A stretch of DNA of 64,000 nt from Flavobacteriaceae bacterium D16 (lineage in GTDB: Bacteria; Bacteroidota; Bacteroidia; Flavobacteriales; Flavobacteriaceae). The notes below the pieces were generated by a model that was given only the letters and a program-made list of their open reading frames with translations, made no database searches and was not told the DNA's origin. Positions 16,254 to 34,138 of this stretch are shown here, piece by piece. A program made the translations under genes and the position numbers. The stretch is taken from the NCBI GenBank assembly GCA_021295155.1, contig JAJTJC010000032.1, positions 1 through 64,000 of the forward strand, in the 5' to 3' direction. The stretch's first letter is position 1; the number at the start of each line of letters is the position of its first letter.

Positions 16254-16329
16254 TGGCACGGGAGGAGAGACTCGAACTCCCGACACCTGGTTTTGGAGAC
16301 CAGTGCTCTACCAACTGAGCTACACCCGT
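16254..16329 (-). tRNA. tRNA-Trp (CCA anticodon)
   Basis: The cloverleaf is complete with anticodon CCA in the loop CTCCAAA, D-arm GCTC/GAGC and T-loop TTCGAGT. The 3' CCA is encoded (16254-16256), unlike in the four tRNAs upstream of tuf. In the acceptor stem, ACGGGTG against CTCCCGT leaves one T-T mismatch at the sixth pair. It lies between tuf and secE. Confidence 0.95.
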
Positions 16330-16396
16330 TTCTATTTACGTGGAAAGGTATCCTGCAGAAGCAGGACACCCTTTCCCGTAACTATGTTCAAATTAT

Positions 16397-17584
16397 TTAA
16401 TCCAAAATTTTGGTAACCTGACCGGCACCTACAGTCCTGCCACCTTCGCGAATCGCAAATCGCAATCCTACGTTAAGGGCAATAGGTTGGAGCAAATCTA
16501 CCGTAATGGTGATGTTATCTCCAGGCATTACCATTTCAACTCCGTCAGGAAGGTTGATGGTACCTGTTACGTCTGTAGTCCTTACATAGAACTGTGGACG
16601 GTAATTGTTATGGAAAGGTGTGTGACGACCTCCTTCTTCTTTTTTCAGGATATAAACCTCTGCTTCAAATTTAGCGTGCGGTGTAATGGAACCTGGCTTA
16701 CAGATTACCATTCCACGCTTAACATCAGACTTTTCAATACCCCTAAGCAGGATACCTACGTTATCTCCAGCTTCACCTCGGTCAAGAATCTTACGGAACA
16801 TCTCAACACCAGTAATAGTAGACGTAAGCTTCTCAGCTCCCATACCGATGATGTCAACAGGATCACCTGTATTAGCCACTCCGGTTTCAATCCTACCAGT
16901 TGCTACAGTACCACGTCCTGTAATAGTGAATACGTCTTCAACAGGCATAAGGAAATCCTTCTCCACGTCACGCTTAGGTAATTCGATCCATGAATCTACA
17001 GCCTCCATCAATTCCATAACTGTGTTAACCCATTTTTCCTCACCGTTCAATGCTCCAAGAGCAGAACCAGAAATTACCGGGCTATTGTCACCGTCATAAT
17101 CGTAGAAAGAAAGTAATTCACGAACTTCCATCTCAACGAGTTCAAGAAGTTCTTCATCGTCTACCATGTCTACCTTATTAAGGAAAACTACAATTCGTGG
17201 AATACCAACCTGACGACCAAGAAGGATGTGCTCACGAGTTTGTGGCATCGGACCATCCGTAGCAGCAACTACAAGGATAGCACCATCCATCTGGGCAGCA
17301 CCAGTAACCATGTTCTTTACATAATCCGCGTGACCAGGACAGTCAACGTGTGCGTAGTGACGGTTAGCTGTTTGATACTCTACGTGTGAAGTATTAATTG
17401 TAATACCTCTTTCTTTTTCTTCCGGAGCGTTATCGATAGAATCGAAACTCCTTACTTCGGACAAACCTGCATTTGACAACACTGTTGTAATAGCAGCAGT
17501 CAATGTGGTTTTACCGTGATCTACGTGTCCAATAGTACCAATATTCAAGTGCGGTTTGGAACGATCAAAAGTTTCCTTTGCCAT
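16397..17584 (-). CDS. tuf: Elongation factor Tu
   Basis: EF-Tu delivers aminoacyl-tRNA to the ribosome. The 395 aa show G1 GHVDHGKTT (19-27), G3 DCPGH (81-85) and G4 NKVD (136-139), then the two beta-barrel domains. It is embedded between tRNA-Thr(GGT) and tRNA-Trp, so mature mRNA is probably released by tRNA processing. No Shine-Dalgarno precedes the ATG. Confidence 0.99.
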
Positions 17585-17637
17585 GGTTAAATAATTTAAT
17601 CTTAGTTTATATTAGTGTACTTGTTATTCAAAATTTG

Positions 17638-17709
17638 AGCCAACGACGGGAATTGAACCCGTGACCTCTTCCTTACCAAGGAAACGCTCTACCCCTGAGC
17701 TACGTCGGC
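17638..17709 (-). tRNA. tRNA-Thr (GGT anticodon)
   Basis: The 72-nt cloverleaf has acceptor GCCGACG/CGTTGGC and anticodon loop TTGGTAA. CCA is not encoded. It is last in the tRNA run before tuf. Confidence 0.95.
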
Positions 17710-17794
17710 TTAATGGGTTTCACGGGTTCAAACTTTTCAGTTTCCGGAGTTTACCTCCACTACCGAAACCGCAAAGTTGAACTCAATTTTGTTG

Positions 17795-17867
17795 AGCGGG
17801 AGACCGGGTTCGAACCGGCGACATTCAGCTTGGAAGGCTGACGCTCTACCAACTGAGCTACTCCCGC
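17795..17867 (-). tRNA. tRNA-Gly (TCC anticodon)
   Basis: The 73-nt cloverleaf has acceptor GCGGGAG/CTCCCGC, anticodon stem TCAGC/GCTGA and loop CTTCCAA. CCA is not encoded. Confidence 0.95.
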
Positions 17868-17961
17868 AATATTCAATTTCAATATGTCAAAATCAATTCC
17901 AAATCTGCCTGGGCCGCCCGAAATCAAATTCATGATTCTAGCCATTGGAATTTCACCTTTG

Positions 17962-18044
17962 TGGGGAGAGCAGGATTCGAACCTGCGAAGGTAAAAACCA
18001 ACAGATTTACAGTCTGTCCTCGTTGGCCGCTTGAGTATCTCCCC
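17962..18044 (-). tRNA. tRNA-Tyr (GTA anticodon)
   Basis: This class II tRNA of 83 nt has a long variable arm. The acceptor is GGGGAGA/TCTCCCC, the anticodon stem ACAGA/TCTGT and the loop CTGTAAA. CCA is not encoded. Confidence 0.95.
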
Positions 18045-18070
18045 CTCCTTAGTATTTCTAGGAACATTCG

Positions 18071-18144
18071 AGCCGATGGAGGGACTCGAACCCACGACCT
18101 GCTGATTACAAATCAGCTGCTCTAGCCAGCTGAGCTACATCGGC
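18071..18144 (-). tRNA. tRNA-Thr (TGT anticodon)
   Basis: The 74-nt cloverleaf has acceptor GCCGATG/CATCGGC, anticodon stem GCTGA/TCAGC and loop TTTGTAA. It is the first gene behind the tRNA-tuf promoter. CCA is not encoded. Confidence 0.95.
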
Positions 18145-26979: not shown

Positions 26980-27558
26980 ATGAAACAGAATGTATTAAGT
27001 TTGGCCTTGGCCATAGTATTTGGAACGTCATTAACGGCTTCCACACCAATTGAAGTTGTAACCAAACAAGTAAAGACAACTGAAAGCACCGTAACCTGGA
27101 AGGGATATAAGGTAACAGGATCTCACTATGGAAACATCAATCTTAACAGCGGTTCCCTCTCTTTTGATGGCGATAAGCTCGTTGGTGGAGAATTTGTTGT
27201 AGACATGAGCAGCCTCATTTCAACAGATCTGGAAGGCGAATACAAAGGTAAACTGGAAGGACACTTGAAATCAGATGATTTCTTCGGAGTTGAAAAACAC
27301 CCAACCTCCACCCTGGTATTCACTGAAGTAAAAGCTAATGGTAAAAATTCCTATGAAGTTACTGGCGACCTGACCATTAAAGGGATTACCAAAGCCGTTA
27401 CCTTTGATGTATCTGTTTATGGAAGCAAAGCTACAGCAACAATGAAGGTAGACCGTTCAGAATACGACGTGCGCTACGGTTCCGGAAGCTTTTTTGACAA
27501 CCTGGGAGACAAGACCATTTACGATGAGTTTGACCTTGTAGTAGATTTACAATTCTAG
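26980..27558 (+). CDS. YceI family secreted lipid-binding-like protein
   Basis: The 192 aa include a signal peptide (1-20, LSLALAIVFGTSLTAS) and a lipocalin-like YceI domain: TESTVTWKGYKVTGSHYGNI, HLKSDDFFGVEKHP, and YDVRYGSGSFFDNLGDKTI. The family binds isoprenoid chains in the periplasm. It is co-transcribed with marR and ends at a strong terminator before the trp promoter. Confidence 0.93.
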   Translation: MKQNVLSLALAIVFGTSLTASTPIEVVTKQVKTTESTVTWKGYKVTGSHYGNINLNSGSLSFDGDKLVGGEFVVDMSSLISTDLEGEYKGKLEGHLKSDDFFGVEKHPTSTLVFTEVKANGKNSYEVTGDLTIKGITKAVTFDVSVYGSKATATMKVDRSEYDVRYGSGSFFDNLGDKTIYDEFDLVVDLQF

Positions 27559-27573
27559 AAAAAGAGAATTTAT

Positions 27574-27607
27574 AAAACCCAACCGTTAAAATTTAGGTTG
27601 GGTTTTT
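27574..27607 (+). terminator. Intrinsic terminator of marR-yceI
   Basis: AAAACCCAACC (27574-27584) pairs with GGTTGGGTTTT (27596-27606), followed by T. It is 15 bases after the yceI stop and separates this unit from the trp operon. Confidence 0.88.
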
Positions 27608-27615
27608 ACTTTTGA

Positions 27616-27646
27616 TTTGGAATTCTGAAATTCCTTTCTATCTTTG
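27616..27646 (+). promoter_or_regulatory. trp operon promoter
   Basis: TTTG (27616-27619), a 19-base spacer and TATCTTTG (27639-27646) match the Bacteroidota consensus perfectly. The start would fall at about 27650-27653, right at the leader peptide ATG (27652). Confidence 0.75.
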
Positions 27647-27651
27647 AGCTG

Positions 27652-27708
27652 ATGAAAAGAAATACAGCAAATAACTGGTGGTGGACTAACGATCGAATAA
27701 TGTCGTGA
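27652..27708 (+). CDS. trpL: trp operon leader peptide
   Basis: An 18-codon ORF encodes MKRNTANNWWWTNDRIMS. Three consecutive Trp codons (27676-27684) serve to sense charged tRNA-Trp by ribosome stalling. It lies between an excellent promoter and a terminator hairpin just before trpE, the classical arrangement of transcription attenuation. ACAGCAA inside the ORF (27664-27670) can pair with TTGCTGT at 27722-27728. Confidence 0.85.
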   Translation: MKRNTANNWWWTNDRIMS

Positions 27709-27730
27709 GTAGGCCCTTGTATTGCTGTTT

Positions 27731-27762
27731 AAAAAGGCTTGTCTTCCACGACAAGCCTTTTT
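27731..27762 (+). terminator. trp attenuator terminator
   Basis: A perfect 13-bp stem AAAAAGGCTTGTC (27731-27743) with GACAAGCCTTTTT (27750-27762) and loop TTCCAC, followed by a T-rich tract. A competing antiterminator is possible: AGGCCCTT (27711-27718) can pair, with one C bulged, with AAGGCTT (27734-27740). trpE starts 22 bases after the stem. Confidence 0.85.
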
Positions 27763-27784
27763 GATTTTTATATCCAATACAAAC

Positions 27785-29182
27785 ATGCGTTACAAATTAA
27801 AGACCCATTACAAACAGATTTTGGCCGATACGCTTACCCCGGTGAGTGTTTATCTGAAGATCAGGGATCGTTTCCCCAACAGCATCCTGTTGGAGAGTAG
27901 TGATTACCGTGCCAATGACAATACTTTTTCCTACATCTGCTGCAATCCCATTGCCGGGATACAAATTTCGGATGAGATTATTACGGAGTTCTTTCCAGAC
28001 GGTAGTCAAAAACAAACCCCGGTTGACAAAGAAACCGATGTTCCTCAGCACATCCACCAATTCAGTCAGAAATTTGAAGTAGATAAAAACGGGTTTAAGT
28101 TCATCAACAACGGCCTTTTTGGGTACATGGCCTACGATGCTGTTCGGTACTACGAAGACATTGACCTGGAGAAAAAACCGGGAGAATTGGGTATCCCCGA
28201 TGTGTATTATGCGGTGTATCAAAACATCATTGCCATTAACCACTTCAAGAACGAGGCCTACCTGTTTGCCCACTGCTACAATAGTGAAAATAACCTCGAA
28301 GATCTGGAGCAACTATTAAGTGTACGTACTTTCTCTTCTTATTCTTTTACCAAAGACGGCAAGGCAGTGTCTAACCTCAGCGATGAGGAGTATATGGAAC
28401 TCGTGGAACAGGCCAAGATTCACTGTAAAAGAGGAGATGTATTTCAACTGGTTTTATCCCGACGTTTCTCCCAGGGATTCAAAGGAGATGAGTTCAACGT
28501 ATACAGGGCCCTTCGCTCCATAAACCCTTCACCCTACCTCTTTTATTTTGACTACGGCAACTTCAAAATATTTGGAAGTTCTCCGGAGGCCCAGTTAGTA
28601 GTGCACAAAGGGAAAGCAGAGATCCACCCTATAGCCGGAACTTTTAAACGTACCGGTAATGATGAGGAAGATGCCCGTTTGGCTAAGGCCCTTACCGAAG
28701 ACGATAAGGAAAACAGTGAACATGTTATGCTGGTAGACCTGGCCCGAAACGACCTGAGTCGTCATGGGAATATGGTCCACGTAGACAACTACAGGGAAGT
28801 GCAGTACTTCTCCCATGTAATTCATTTGGTATCCAAGGTCACAGGGAAGATTAAGCCGGATGTACCTACTATGAAGATCGTTGCAGATACCTTTCCTGCA
28901 GGGACCCTTAGTGGTGCTCCAAAACATATGGCCATGCAATTGATTGAGAAATATGAAAAAAACAACAGGGATTACTATGGAGGTGCCATTGGTTTTATGG
29001 CCTTTGACGGCGATTTTAATCACGCAATTATGATCAGGACCTTCCTGAGCAAAAACCACCTCCTGCATTTTCAGGCCGGAGCAGGTCTGGTAGCTGCTTC
29101 AGATTCAGAGAATGAATTGCAGGAAACCTATAATAAACTTGGTGCCCTGAATCGGGCCCTGGAAATGGCTGAACAGATTTAA
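27785..29182 (+). CDS. trpE: Anthranilate synthase component I
   Basis: TrpE converts chorismate with ammonia or glutamine to anthranilate. From the ATG at 27785 it has 465 aa; an in-frame start at 27722 would translate the attenuator. The feedback-inhibition motif LLESSD is near 29-34. The catalytic regions are HPIAGTFKRTG, ENSEHVMLVDLARNDL and PAGTLSGAPK. It is the first structural gene of the operon and is separated from trpG by one base. Confidence 0.97.
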   Translation: MRYKLKTHYKQILADTLTPVSVYLKIRDRFPNSILLESSDYRANDNTFSYICCNPIAGIQISDEIITEFFPDGSQKQTPVDKETDVPQHIHQFSQKFEVDKNGFKFINNGLFGYMAYDAVRYYEDIDLEKKPGELGIPDVYYAVYQNIIAINHFKNEAYLFAHCYNSENNLEDLEQLLSVRTFSSYSFTKDGKAVSNLSDEEYMELVEQAKIHCKRGDVFQLVLSRRFSQGFKGDEFNVYRALRSINPSPYLFYFDYGNFKIFGSSPEAQLVVHKGKAEIHPIAGTFKRTGNDEEDARLAKALTEDDKENSEHVMLVDLARNDLSRHGNMVHVDNYREVQYFSHVIHLVSKVTGKIKPDVPTMKIVADTFPAGTLSGAPKHMAMQLIEKYEKNNRDYYGGAIGFMAFDGDFNHAIMIRTFLSKNHLLHFQAGAGLVAASDSENELQETYNKLGALNRALEMAEQI

Positions 29183-29183
29183 T

Positions 29184-29750
29184 ATGAAAAGAGTTCTTGT
29201 CATAGACAATTACGATAGTTTCACCTATAACCTGGTGCATTACCTGGAAGAACTGGGTGCCGAGGTAGTGGTAAAACGCAATGACCAGTTGGAACTTTCT
29301 GAGATTGCTCCATTTGAAAAAATAGTGCTGTCTCCTGGTCCGGGAATACCCGATGAAGCGGGTTTGCTCAAGGATATTATCGCCGCATACGCAAAGGAAA
29401 AAAGTATTTTTGGTGTTTGCCTTGGCCAACAGGCCATAGCAGAGGTCTTTGGAGGTAAGTTGATCAATCTGGAAGATGTTTACCACGGTATTGCCACCGA
29501 GGCACATATCATTGTTGCAGATCCCATTTTCGAGGGTCTTCCCAACGACATACCTGTAGGTCGGTACCATTCATGGGTAGTGGATCCTGAGTTACCCGCC
29601 TGCCTGGAAGCTACCTCCTTCGACGCCCAGGGTCAGCTCATGTCTCTAAGACATAGGGAATACGATGTAAAGGGTGTACAGTTCCATCCGGAATCCATAC
29701 TTACACCGCATGGAAAACAAATATTAGAAAACTGGTTAAACCAAGCATAA
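29184..29750 (+). CDS. trpG: Anthranilate synthase component II (glutamine amidotransferase)
   Basis: The class I amidotransferase (188 aa) delivers ammonia to TrpE. The nucleophile is C79 in GVCLGQQ, and the other triad residues are H168 and E170 in VQFHPES. The stop overlaps the trpD ATG (29750), so translation is coupled. Confidence 0.97.
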   Translation: MKRVLVIDNYDSFTYNLVHYLEELGAEVVVKRNDQLELSEIAPFEKIVLSPGPGIPDEAGLLKDIIAAYAKEKSIFGVCLGQQAIAEVFGGKLINLEDVYHGIATEAHIIVADPIFEGLPNDIPVGRYHSWVVDPELPACLEATSFDAQGQLMSLRHREYDVKGVQFHPESILTPHGKQILENWLNQA

Positions 29751-30742
29751 TGAAAGAAACGCTAAACCGGCTGATCAATCACGAAATACTATCCAAGGAG
29801 GATGCACAGCAAATCTTGGTGAATATGGCCCAGGGAGCTTACAATACCAGTCAAATAGCTGCATTCCTTACGGTCTATATGATGCGGAGTGTGACCATTG
29901 AGGAACTGGAAGGATTCCGCGACGCGCTACTCGAGCTGTGCCTTGCTGTGGATTTATCAGAGTTTGACCCGGTAGACCTGTGTGGTACCGGTGGAGATGG
30001 CAAGGATACCTTCAACATCTCTACCCTTGCCTCCTTTGTGGCTGCCGGTGCAGGAATCAAGGTAACCAAACACGGAAACTATGGCGTGTCCTCCACTTGT
30101 GGAAGTAGTAATGTCATGGAATTCCTGGGAATTCAATTCAGTAGTGATGCAGACTTCCTTAAAAAATGCATTGATGAAACCGGGATATGTGTTTTACACG
30201 CTCCCCTGTTCCACCCTGCCATGAAACATGTAGCGCCCATACGAAAAGCTCTAGCAGTAAAGACGTTTTTCAATATGCTCGGTCCCATGGTGAACCCTGC
30301 ATTTCCAAAGAACCAAATGGTAGGGGTCTTTAACCTGGAATTAGCCAGGATGTACGGCTACCTTTACCAGAATACAGATAAGAAATTCACCGTATTACAT
30401 GCACTGGACGGGTATGATGAAATTTCCCTTACCGGGCCAACAAAAACCATATCCAACAACAGTGAAAGCATCCTCCATCCTTCGGATTTTGGGGTATCCC
30501 AGGTGCGCCCTGAAGAGATTGCCGGTGGAAGTACCGTGGCCGAATCTGCCCAGACCTTTTTGAATATTTTGCAGGGCAAGGGAAGCGAAGCCCAGAACCA
30601 TGTAGTCTGTGCAAATGCCGGTGTAGCCATAAGTACCGTCCAGAATTTAAATCCTAAGCAAGGCTTTGAAAAGGCCATGGATTCCCTGAAAAGCGGCAGG
30701 GCCCTGGAAACTTTAAAGAAATTACAACAATTGAGTACATAA
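29750..30742 (+). CDS. trpD: Anthranilate phosphoribosyltransferase
   Basis: This enzyme (330 aa) joins anthranilate to PRPP. Signatures are CGTGGDGKDTFNIST (about 79-93), the PRPP-binding glycine loop, and KHGNYGVSSTCGSSNVMEFLG. It is a free-standing TrpD, not fused to TrpG. Its stop is directly followed by the trpC ATG. Confidence 0.97.
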   Translation: MKETLNRLINHEILSKEDAQQILVNMAQGAYNTSQIAAFLTVYMMRSVTIEELEGFRDALLELCLAVDLSEFDPVDLCGTGGDGKDTFNISTLASFVAAGAGIKVTKHGNYGVSSTCGSSNVMEFLGIQFSSDADFLKKCIDETGICVLHAPLFHPAMKHVAPIRKALAVKTFFNMLGPMVNPAFPKNQMVGVFNLELARMYGYLYQNTDKKFTVLHALDGYDEISLTGPTKTISNNSESILHPSDFGVSQVRPEEIAGGSTVAESAQTFLNILQGKGSEAQNHVVCANAGVAISTVQNLNPKQGFEKAMDSLKSGRALETLKKLQQLST

Positions 30743-31528
30743 ATGGATATCCTGGATAAAATAGTAGCCGACAAAAGGCAGGAAGTAGCCCTGAAGAAGC
30801 AATTGATTTCCGTTGAGGCGCTGGAGAAATTTCCGCTATTTGACCGCGAATCCCCATCATTGTCAGAAGCCCTCAAAAAAGCCGAAGTAGGTATTATAGC
30901 CGAACACAAAAGACGCTCCCCTTCACGGGCAGTAATCAATAACAGCCTGGATATCCATAAAGTAGCACAGGGCTATCAAAAAGCAGGAGCCTGTGGCATG
31001 TCAGTACTGACAGATGGTAAATATTTCGGAGGTTCTTTGGACGACCTTATCCTGGCCCGCTCAGTAGTGGATTTTCCCTTATTGCGAAAGGACTTTACCA
31101 TTGATGAGTACCAGATCATTGAGGCCAAAGCCTATGGTGCAGATGTGATACTGCTTATTGCGGCTGTTTTAGATCCGGGGGAGATCAAACAATTTAGTGA
31201 ACTGACGAACAGTCTGGGCATGGAAGTGCTCCTAGAGGTTCATAACCTGGATGAACTCAAGGCCTCGATAATTCCGGGAATTGAGATGCTGGGAGTAAAT
31301 AACCGTAATCTCAAAACTTTTGAAGTAGCTCTGGATACCAGCAGATCGCTATGTGAACATATTCCAGAGGGCATGGTCAAAGTATCGGAAAGTGGTATCA
31401 GCAATGCCGAGGCCATTCGCAATTTACAGGGCTTTGGTTACCAGGGGTTTCTGGTAGGAGAACATTTTATGAAGAACGAAGATCCGGGGAGATCTGCATC
31501 AGAATTTATAAATAAGGTTAAGGGATGA
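30743..31528 (+). CDS. trpC: Indole-3-glycerol phosphate synthase
   Basis: A TIM-barrel enzyme of 261 aa closes the indole ring. Visible are AEHKRRSPSRAVIN (catalytic Lys on strand 2), LRKDFTIDEYQI (second catalytic Lys) and LGVNNRNLKTF. It overlaps trpF by 4 bases. Confidence 0.97.
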   Translation: MDILDKIVADKRQEVALKKQLISVEALEKFPLFDRESPSLSEALKKAEVGIIAEHKRRSPSRAVINNSLDIHKVAQGYQKAGACGMSVLTDGKYFGGSLDDLILARSVVDFPLLRKDFTIDEYQIIEAKAYGADVILLIAAVLDPGEIKQFSELTNSLGMEVLLEVHNLDELKASIIPGIEMLGVNNRNLKTFEVALDTSRSLCEHIPEGMVKVSESGISNAEAIRNLQGFGYQGFLVGEHFMKNEDPGRSASEFINKVKG

Positions 31529-32172
31529 AACTCAAGGTTTGCGGCATAAAAGAAAATCCTGAAGCGGTAAGGGCTCTGCAGCCAGATTACCTGGGCTTTA
31601 TCTTTTGGGAACCTTCGCCACGATTTATTTCGAATCCGCCGGAGGGTTTGCCTTCAGACATTCAAAGGGTAGGGGTCTTCGTGGATGCGTCAATCCCTGA
31701 TATCCTGAGGCAAATACAGGTCTTTGGTTTGTCCCTCGTTCAATTGCACGGAAAAGAAAGTCCTGAATTTTGTACTGCCCTTCAAAAAGAACTGGCCAAA
31801 TCCCAGGGAGATGACAGTTTAAAAGTGAAACTTATTAAGGTCTTCTCCGTAAATGATGAGTTTGATTTTACAGTTCTATCTGCCTATGAAAAGATCTGCG
31901 ATTATTTCCTTTTCGATACCAAGGGAAAATTACCCGGAGGTAATGGATATGCTTTTAACTGGGAATTGCTGAAGGAGTATCCTTCCAAAAAACCTTACTT
32001 TTTAAGTGGTGGGATTGGTCTGGAGGAAGTACCTCAACTGATTCGATTTATAGAATCTCCTGAAGCTGCCTTCTGCCATGCATTGGATGTAAACAGCAAA
32101 TTTGAACTAAAACCGGGAGCTAAAGATGTACCGGAATTAAAACGTTTTATGAAATTAATATTCGACAAATAA
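31525..32172 (+). CDS. trpF: Phosphoribosylanthranilate isomerase
   Basis: TrpF (215 aa) carries the N-terminal KVCGIK motif with the catalytic Cys, then VQLHGKE and the phosphate-binding FLSGGIGLEEV. The barrel is complete. It is a separate gene rather than the TrpC-F fusion of enterobacteria. It follows trpC with an ATGA overlap. Confidence 0.96.
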   Translation: MKLKVCGIKENPEAVRALQPDYLGFIFWEPSPRFISNPPEGLPSDIQRVGVFVDASIPDILRQIQVFGLSLVQLHGKESPEFCTALQKELAKSQGDDSLKVKLIKVFSVNDEFDFTVLSAYEKICDYFLFDTKGKLPGGNGYAFNWELLKEYPSKKPYFLSGGIGLEEVPQLIRFIESPEAAFCHALDVNSKFELKPGAKDVPELKRFMKLIFDK

Positions 32173-32175
32173 AAG

Positions 32176-33357
32176 ATGAGCTATAACGTAAACGAAAAAG
32201 GATATTACGGCCAGTTCGGTGGCGCATTTATACCAGAGATGCTCTATCCCAATACGGACGAACTGCGCCGGCAATATATTGAGATTATGGAAGCAGCTGA
32301 CTTCCAGCAGGAATTCAGGCAATTACTGCGGGACTATGTGGGCAGGCCCACCCCCCTGTATTTTGCGGAACGTCTGTCAGAGACTTTTAAAACCAAAATA
32401 TATCTGAAAAGGGAAGACCTCTGCCATACCGGTGCACATAAGGTGAACAACACAATCGGACAAATATTGCTGGCCAAGCGGCTTGGAAAAAACAGGATAA
32501 TCGCTGAAACCGGAGCAGGGCAACATGGGGTAGCCACAGCTACTGTTTGTGCACTGATGGGGATAGAATGTGTGGTATACATGGGTGAGGTAGATATTGC
32601 CAGACAGGCACCAAATGTAGCCCGGATGAAAATGCTTGGAGCAACAGTCAAACCGGCAACCTCCGGAAGCCGAACGCTCAAGGATGCCACAAATGAGGCT
32701 ATCAGGGACTGGATAAATAACCCGGTAGACACGCATTATATTATCGGATCTGTGGTTGGTCCACATCCCTACCCTGATATGGTTGCTCGTTTTCAGTCGG
32801 TGATCTCCGAAGAAGTACAGCAACAATTACTGGAAAAAGAAGGAACCCCAAACCCGGATTATGTAGTGGCCTGCGTTGGAGGAGGAAGTAACGCAGCCGG
32901 CCTGTATTACCACTACCTGGATAATCCTGAAGTGGGCATTATTGCGGTGGAAGCGGCAGGTAAAGGAATTCATACAGGAGAAAGTGCTGCCACCTCGGCC
33001 CTCGGAAAAGTAGGTATCATCCATGGAAGTAAAACCTTGCTGATGCAAACCCCAGACGGACAGATTACCGAACCTTATTCCATTTCGGCAGGGCTGGACT
33101 ATCCCGGAGTTGGTCCTATGCATGCCAACCTCTATGCTTCTGGAAGGGGAGAGTTTATCTCCATAACGGATAAAGAGGCCATGGAAGCAGGTTTGTTGGT
33201 TTCGAAACTGGAGGGGATAATCCCGGCCATTGAAACCTCACATGCCTTCGCGATATTTGACCACCGTTCTTTTAAACCGGACGATATTGTAGTGTTCAAT
33301 TTATCCGGGCGCGGTGATAAAGACCTGCAAACCTATATCGATTACTTTAAACTATAG
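32176..33357 (+). CDS. trpB: Tryptophan synthase beta chain
   Basis: A PLP enzyme of 393 aa makes tryptophan from indole and serine. The PLP lysine is K89 in HTGAHKVNN. The phosphate-binding GGGSNA and the C-terminal LSGRGDKDL are present. It starts 3 bases after trpF and is followed by trpA after 10 bases. Confidence 0.98.
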
Positions 33358-33367
33358 TAGAAACCCA

Positions 33368-34138
33368 ATGAACAGGATTACAAAAAAACTGAGGGAAGAC
33401 GGAAAACTACTGTCCATTTACTTTACAGCAGGGTATCCGGAATTAGAGGATACCGTTCCTATTATCAAGGCACTGGAAAGAAATGGTGTGGATATGATCG
33501 AGATCGGTCTGCCCTTTAGTGACCCTCTCGCAGATGGGCCTACCATTCAGGAAAGTTCTACCGCAGCGCTTCGGAAAGGGATGTCTACCGAACTGCTTTT
33601 TGAACAGCTGGAAGGGATTAGGGATTCAGTAAAGATCCCTTTGATCATCATGGGCTATTTCAATCCGGTACTGCAATACGGAGTTGAGGCCTTTTGTTCC
33701 CGATGCGCAGATATTGGGATTGACGGGCTTATACTTCCCGATCTTCCCCTGGATGTTTACCAGGAGGAATATGAGGCCATATTCAAAAAATACGGCTTGC
33801 AAAACATGTTCCTGATTACTCCTCAAACCAGTGATGAGCGGATACAGCAAATAGATGAGGCTTCAGAAGGTTTTATTTATATGGTAAGCTCCGCAAGCAC
33901 AACCGGGGCTCAAACAGGATTTGGAACAGAACAACAGCAATACTTCGAACGTATTGCCCGTATGCAACTGGAACATCCACAGATAGTGGGCTTCGGAATA
34001 AGCAATGCGGAAACTTTTGAGCAGGCTACACGAAAAGCAAAGGGTGCCATCATCGGGTCCGCATTTATCAAATTCCTCACCAAGGAGGGAAAAGAACATA
34101 TAGACCAATTTATCAAGTCCATTAAAATCCCTGTATGA
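33368..34138 (+). CDS. trpA: Tryptophan synthase alpha chain
   Basis: The 256-aa alpha subunit cleaves indole-3-glycerol phosphate and feeds indole to TrpB. Catalytic residues E45 and D56 lie in MIEIGLPFSDPLADGP, 11 apart as in the family. The start MNRITKKLRE is preferred over an in-frame ATG inside trpB (33314). Confidence 0.97.
   Translation: MNRITKKLREDGKLLSIYFTAGYPELEDTVPIIKALERNGVDMIEIGLPFSDPLADGPTIQESSTAALRKGMSTELLFEQLEGIRDSVKIPLIIMGYFNPVLQYGVEAFCSRCADIGIDGLILPDLPLDVYQEEYEAIFKKYGLQNMFLITPQTSDERIQQIDEASEGFIYMVSSASTTGAQTGFGTEQQQYFERIARMQLEHPQIVGFGISNAETFEQATRKAKGAIIGSAFIKFLTKEGKEHIDQFIKSIKIPV

Follow-up and report, generated by a model that had tools for sequence, protein, structure and literature searches.

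The window, the whole 64,000-nt stretch analysed here, comes from a marine flavobacterium, Flavobacteriaceae bacterium D16. Positions 27616-27784 hold a promoter, a short leader ORF and a terminator ahead of trpE (Table 1), and Pfam matches and ORFs place a complete trp operon, trpEGDCFBA, downstream of the leader in a single direction. The terminator sits between the leader ORF and this first structural gene, and because the trpE start at 27785 lies only 20 nt past the terminator stem, there is no space for a second promoter. Upstream, a gene encoding a YceI-like protein (Pfam) ends at 27558 and is followed at 27575-27608 by a strong inverted repeat with a T run (AAACCCAACC...GGTTGGGTTTTT). 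This repeat is likely the terminator of the YceI-like gene, so the leader unit appears self-contained.

Table 1. Features of the trp leader and operon, with positions in the window
Feature	Position	Strand	Details and basis
Bacteroidota-type promoter	27616..27646	+	TTTG 27616-27619, N19, TATCTTTG 27639-27646; sequence
Predicted transcription start	G27651 or A27652 (A of ATG)	+	4 or 5 nt from box; 5' UTR of 1 or 0 nt
Match to Rfam RF01692 (Bacteroid-trp)	27632..27743	+	full length (1-131), 48.7 bits; permissive covariance-model scan
Leader peptide ORF, 18 codons	ATG 27652 to TGA 27706-27708	+	MKRNTANNWWWTNDRIMS, then stop; sequence, WWW leaders kept in relatives
Trp-Trp-Trp codons (three consecutive UGG)	27676-27684	+	sequence
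Outer leader hairpin, 5' strand ACAGCAA	27664..27670	+	pairs with 27722-27728; minimum-energy fold
Outer leader hairpin, 3' strand TTGCTGT	27722..27728	+	minimum-energy fold
Anti-antiterminator strand	27689..27693	+	pairs with 27702-27706 at the leader hairpin tip; fold
Antiterminator 5' strand	27701..27718	+	core UGUCGUG 27701-27707, AGUAGGCC 27708-27715, UU 27717-27718; stalled-ribosome folds
Antiterminator 3' strand	27733..27753	+	terminator 5' arm, loop and first four 3'-arm bases; core CACGACA 27747-27753
Intrinsic terminator	27729..27764	+	stem 27729-27743/27750-27764, loop 27744-27749; folds
T-rich tract of terminator	27758-27769	+	sequence
trpE (anthranilate synthase component I), first gene of operon	27785..29182	+	Pfam Anth_synt_I_N, Chorismate_bind
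trpG, trpD, trpC, trpF, trpB, trpA	29184..34138	+	Pfam GATase, Glycos_transf_3, IGPS, PRAI, PALP, Trp_syntA; ORFs

A preliminary description of this DNA had read three consecutive Trp codons in the leader peptide. They are present, and a WWW leader behind a promoter lies ahead of trpE in nearly all Flavobacteriaceae examined, in the shared order of TAnnTTTG box, ATG, usually seven residues, WWW and terminator. The combination of WWW leader, promoter and terminator ahead of trpE extends to other families of the phylum. The closest relatives of the window locus are in Lentiprolixibacter and Eudoraea; the leader of Lentiprolixibacter aurantiacus, from the same genus, reads MNKTTANNWWWTNEQIMS. Across families the UGG codons stand at a nearly constant position after the ATG, with variable codons around them. 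We rejected a chance match because the arrangement recurs in relatives and because the fold and pairing tests described below beat shuffled sequences. A crude search for short ORFs that follow a promoter and contain runs of a single amino acid, covering the window and 800 kb of the same genome, gave no convincing second attenuator.

Folding of the RNA had been put forward as a check on the leader. The folding energy of the whole leader is -41.8 kcal/mol, compared with -21.5 +/- 3.2 kcal/mol in dinucleotide shuffles (z -6.4, 0 of 200 shuffles), and the minimum-energy fold contains the suggested pairing of ACAGCAA (27664-27670) with TTGCTGT (27722-27728). The leader hairpin that results is the structure of Rfam model RF01692. 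At its tip, the antiterminator strand is hidden by pairing of 27702-27706 with 27689-27693, bases that would be wholly or partly covered once a ribosome halts on Trp codon 2 or 3. The equivalent of this hiding hairpin in relatives is 69% paired, which is moderate support, and it is less conserved than the other elements. The terminator had been described as a 13-bp stem; this stem (AAAAAGGCTTGTC/GACAAGCCTTTTT) is present in the sequence, and in the fold it extends to 15 bp at -20.7 kcal/mol. Among relatives the terminator covaries, with two-sided changes in 8 of 12 pairs.

In folds that mimic a stalled ribosome, a competing antiterminator helix forms from four segments (27701-27707/27747-27753, 27708-27709/27743-27744, 27710-27715/27736-27741 and 27717-27718/27733-27734). 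Its core pairs UGUCGUG, located at the leader stop codon, with CACGACA, which runs from the terminator loop into the 3' arm. The preliminary description had proposed a bulged antiterminator of 27711-27718 with 27734-27740. This pairing does occur in the stalled-ribosome folds, but it is only the outer part of the helix, and the conserved segment 27701-27707/27747-27753 had been missed. The window's duplex has an energy of -18.0 kcal/mol, which was equalled by 19 of 2000 shuffles; since it would arise alone with a chance of about 1%, the case for it rests on relatives.

In an alignment of 60 sequences, the antiterminator core is 89.5% paired, and five of its seven pairs carry two-sided changes (0 of 500 shuffles); controls in which the strands were slid reached a maximum of three such pairs and 56% paired. 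A swap test with 28 to 127 distinct sequences gave a similar picture: leader and loop from the same genome pair better than those exchanged between genomes (0 of 5000). The same test applied to the leader and the terminator 5' arm alone found own pairs no better than swapped ones, and thus no co-evolution. The bulged pairing was therefore rejected as a stand-alone antiterminator and is counted as an extension of the core. In relatives, UCGUGA is found in the leader at or near the stop codon and UCACGA in the terminator loop and 3' arm. The frame in which UCGUGA is read varies, from TCG-TGA at the stop of leaders ending in TS, to TTC-GTG in those ending in FVN, to a position past the stop in those ending in FRN. 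A leader word that stays constant while its reading frame shifts points to conservation of the RNA and not of the peptide. Because kinship inflates both covariation and swap tests, the weight lies on several distinct compensating changes that can be read from the sequences: UCGCGA with UCGCGA (L030), GUCGUAAG with CUUGCGGC (L142), GAGAAG with CUUCUC (L156) and GUUGGUG with CACCAGC (L157).

A further observation concerns bases shared between the structures. Alignment columns 60, 124 and 137 show a possible three-way covariation, in few sequences and with an uncertain alignment. Where a G-C pair of the terminator is replaced by A-U, four genomes have an A at the leader position that would pair with that 3'-arm base.

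The leader region matches an Rfam family along the full length of its model. The gathering cut-off of RF01692 is 49 bits, and the window copy falls 0.3 bits below it, with an E-value of 6.1e-5 when 401 bases are searched and 1.2e-4 for the whole genome, where it is the sole match. At the curated cut-off, a search of the whole window with Rfam retrieved tRNAs only, including a cluster of five tRNA genes at 16257-18144 on the minus strand. The same-genus copy of L. aurantiacus scores 54.1 bits, and 14 of the 20 relatives tested, that copy included, pass the cut-off; members of RF01692 are also found in other families of the phylum. Other traits of the family are present in the window, namely a Bacteroidota genome, a position upstream of tryptophan synthesis genes and a short ORF with consecutive Trp codons. 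On this evidence the window copy is best taken as a divergent, borderline-scoring member of RF01692. The model holds the leader hairpin alone and ends at the terminator 5' arm, so that both the 3' strand of the antiterminator core and the terminator 3' arm are absent from it.

Some loci depart from this arrangement. Several Muricauda/Flagellimonas loci (L037, L041, L047, L048 and L050) had no leader in the 400 nt scanned before trpE. At one of them, L037, an RF01692 match at 1991-2103 lies about 400 nt upstream of trpE, which begins at 2501, so extra sequence separates attenuator and trpE. In another family of the order (L165-L167, L152 and L155), the leader is able to pair with the terminator 5' arm, for example UCAAAGUCUU with AAGACUUUGA, and the terminator sequence differs (AGACUUUGACG), which would be another antiterminator geometry inside the RF01692 family.

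To follow the effect of ribosome position, we folded RNA whose free part was set to begin 13 nt past the first base in the A-site codon, a footprint assumed from general knowledge. A ribosome placed at any of the three Trp codons leaves the antiterminator as the best fold while the transcript ends between about 27739 and 27755-27757; past that point the terminator is more stable even with the ribosome stalled. When the ribosome sits at the stop codon instead, or is absent, the terminator side alone forms. At full length, structures with the terminator reach -22 to -25 kcal/mol versus -16.4 kcal/mol for the antiterminator. The switch must therefore be kinetic and act during transcription.

What is observed are the sequence elements, their conservation, covariation and folding energies; termination, antitermination, dependence on Trp and leaderless initiation are inferred as follows. 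Transcription would start at the leader ATG or 1 nt before it, and ribosomes would load on a leaderless message. When Trp is ample, a ribosome would clear the three UGG codons and sit at the stop codon (27706-27708), where it would cover UGUCGUG; the terminator would then fold and transcription would end at about 27765-27770. When Trp is short, the ribosome would wait at the UGG codons (27676-27684) and mask the strand that otherwise hides UGUCGUG. The freed 27701-27718 would pair with the emerging terminator 5' arm, loop and 3'-arm start, the terminator would come too late and the polymerase would continue into trpEGDCFBA. Without translation, the leader hairpin would hide UGUCGUG and the terminator would form, which would make off the default state. 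As far as folding and covariation go, the antiterminator freed by the stalled ribosome would thus be mutually exclusive with the terminator. The classical ribosome-mediated trp attenuator of the preliminary description is supported by the full trp operon, the conserved WWW leader, the co-varying terminator and competing pairing, and folds that switch with ribosome position. The locus is very likely a trp attenuator acting on transcription, in which translation of the 18-codon leader serves to sense charged tRNA-Trp, with a start predicted at the ATG or 1 nt before it.

The predicted start follows from the position of the promoter. Most relatives have a promoter of the same layout with a spacer of N18-N20, and in the window the only consensus promoter in this region has its -7 box 5 nt from the ATG. 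In Flavobacterium psychrophilum, a start-site study places the TAnnTTTG box at -12 to -5 (PMC9723704), and in F. johnsoniae the distance from box to start is 4 or 5 nt (PMC6847099). Together, the 5-nt gap and these two flavobacterial start-site maps predict a start at 27651 or 27652, and hence a leaderless leader mRNA with a 5' UTR of 1 or 0 nt. The gap is also 5 nt in 41 of 151 records, with 22 different spacer sequences, and ranges from 4 to 24 nt in most of the others. In the trpE tree, a quick one in which the placement of two long-branched rows (L029 and L030) is unsure, the window falls in a starred, well-supported clade of 33 where every gap is 4-6 nt and nearly all are 5. This clade includes Lentiprolixibacter, Eudoraea, Zeaxanthinibacter, Maribacter, Cellulophaga, Muricauda and others. 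Such closeness is uncommon elsewhere in the genome: of 28 consensus promoters in 800 kb, 2 have a long ORF within 6 nt. The near-leaderless start that had been suggested for the leader message therefore stands as a prediction, in agreement with published start-site rules and with the clade-wide spacing.

It may be that the attenuator is real and its message is not leaderless, with a start several nucleotides upstream of 27651 or at an unseen promoter and with A-rich, SD-independent initiation. Most flavobacterial transcripts carry leaders: leaderless mRNAs amount to 5.5% in F. psychrophilum (PMC9723704), and leaders exceed 10 nt in 87% of F. johnsoniae transcripts (PMC6847099). In sister groups and more distant relatives the box-to-ATG distance is 8-24 nt, and because the attenuator is kept in these groups, a leaderless start is not required for the switch. 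However, just 5 nt lie between the sole consensus promoter and the ATG, the 4-6 nt spacing holds in 33 of 33 clade members and the upstream gene has a terminator-like repeat of its own. We consider a leadered message unlikely, if worth keeping in mind.

Two other readings would dispense with attenuation by a ribosome. The terminator might be constitutive, with the conserved leader acting mainly after transcription as a small RNA or trans-acting peptide like rnTrpL and peTrpL of Sinorhizobium meliloti, where attenuated leader RNA and peptide work in trans (PMC7298713). The RNA released here is predicted to measure about 115 nt and to end in a stable 3' hairpin, which would suit such a role, but the co-varying pairing of leader and terminator and the position of the WWW codons just before the pairing segment are left unexplained, and we regard this reading as very improbable. 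The leader RNA could, though, have a trans role in addition to attenuation. Trp operons elsewhere are controlled by a protein or tRNA that binds the leader directly, in a TRAP-like or T-box-like manner, and the short ORF would then be incidental. No T-box or other riboregulator family reached threshold in the window, however, and UGG codons nearly fixed in position after the ATG across families, among variable flanking codons, are not expected of an incidental ORF; we give direct binding hardly any credence.

A ribosome-mediated attenuator at this locus would share its working principle with E. coli trpL, where stalling of the ribosome releases an RNA stretch able to pair with one part of the terminator. 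The E. coli antiterminator takes the 5' arm, whereas the co-varying core in the window pairs with the terminator loop and the first 3'-arm bases, and the window leader is predicted to lack both an SD and a 5' UTR. An RNA that starts at the leader ATG has a counterpart in the S. meliloti trpLE(G) attenuator, whose leader RNA rnTrpL begins with the ATG of the leader ORF (PMC7298713); that system belongs to another phylum, and its start is reported as mapped while ours is predicted. Leader peptides are likewise transcribed without a 5' UTR in Actinobacteria (leuL, thrL and metL of Streptomyces lividans); S. lividans uses leaderless messages frequently (17%; PMC8079986), in contrast to the 5.5% of F. 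psychrophilum (PMC9723704).

Closer to home, the Bacteroid-trp motif was published as a probable cis-regulatory RNA of Bacteroidetes (Weinberg et al. 2010, PMC2864571). The window resembles the motif given there in its site upstream of trp genes, phylum, consecutive-Trp leader ORF, leader hairpin and full-length match, and the start of its terminator (AAAAAGGCUUGUC) is the same; it differs in scoring 0.3 bits under the cut-off and in an antiterminator core whose 3' strand the model does not contain. In the same bacterial family, two F. psychrophilum papers note Bacteroid-trp ahead of the trp operon (PMC6414381) and propose leader-peptide attenuation for amino-acid operons (PMC9723704, PMC6414381), and the text consulted describes neither the mechanism nor a leaderless start. 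Our search covered open-access text and found there no description of a leaderless attenuator in Bacteroidota and nothing on ribosome-mediated attenuation with an antiterminator in Bacteroidetes. The trp attenuation system is thus known in kind, and in open-access text we found its Bacteroidota version described only as a computed motif.

Taken together, an SD-free flavobacterial clade probably keeps, under selection, a trp attenuator on a leaderless message, in which the antiterminator takes hold of the loop and 3' arm of the terminator and not of the 5' arm alone. If true, leaderless initiation would be tied directly to the control of transcription in a phylum where leaderless messages are rare. 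The textbook trp attenuator would gain a testable mechanism in Bacteroidota, down to the bases that form the antiterminator, and the clade would mark a place where leaderless, SD-free initiation could be read through a natural reporter. A comparison of clades with 5-nt and 14-22-nt box-to-ATG distances would reveal the effect of leaderless initiation.
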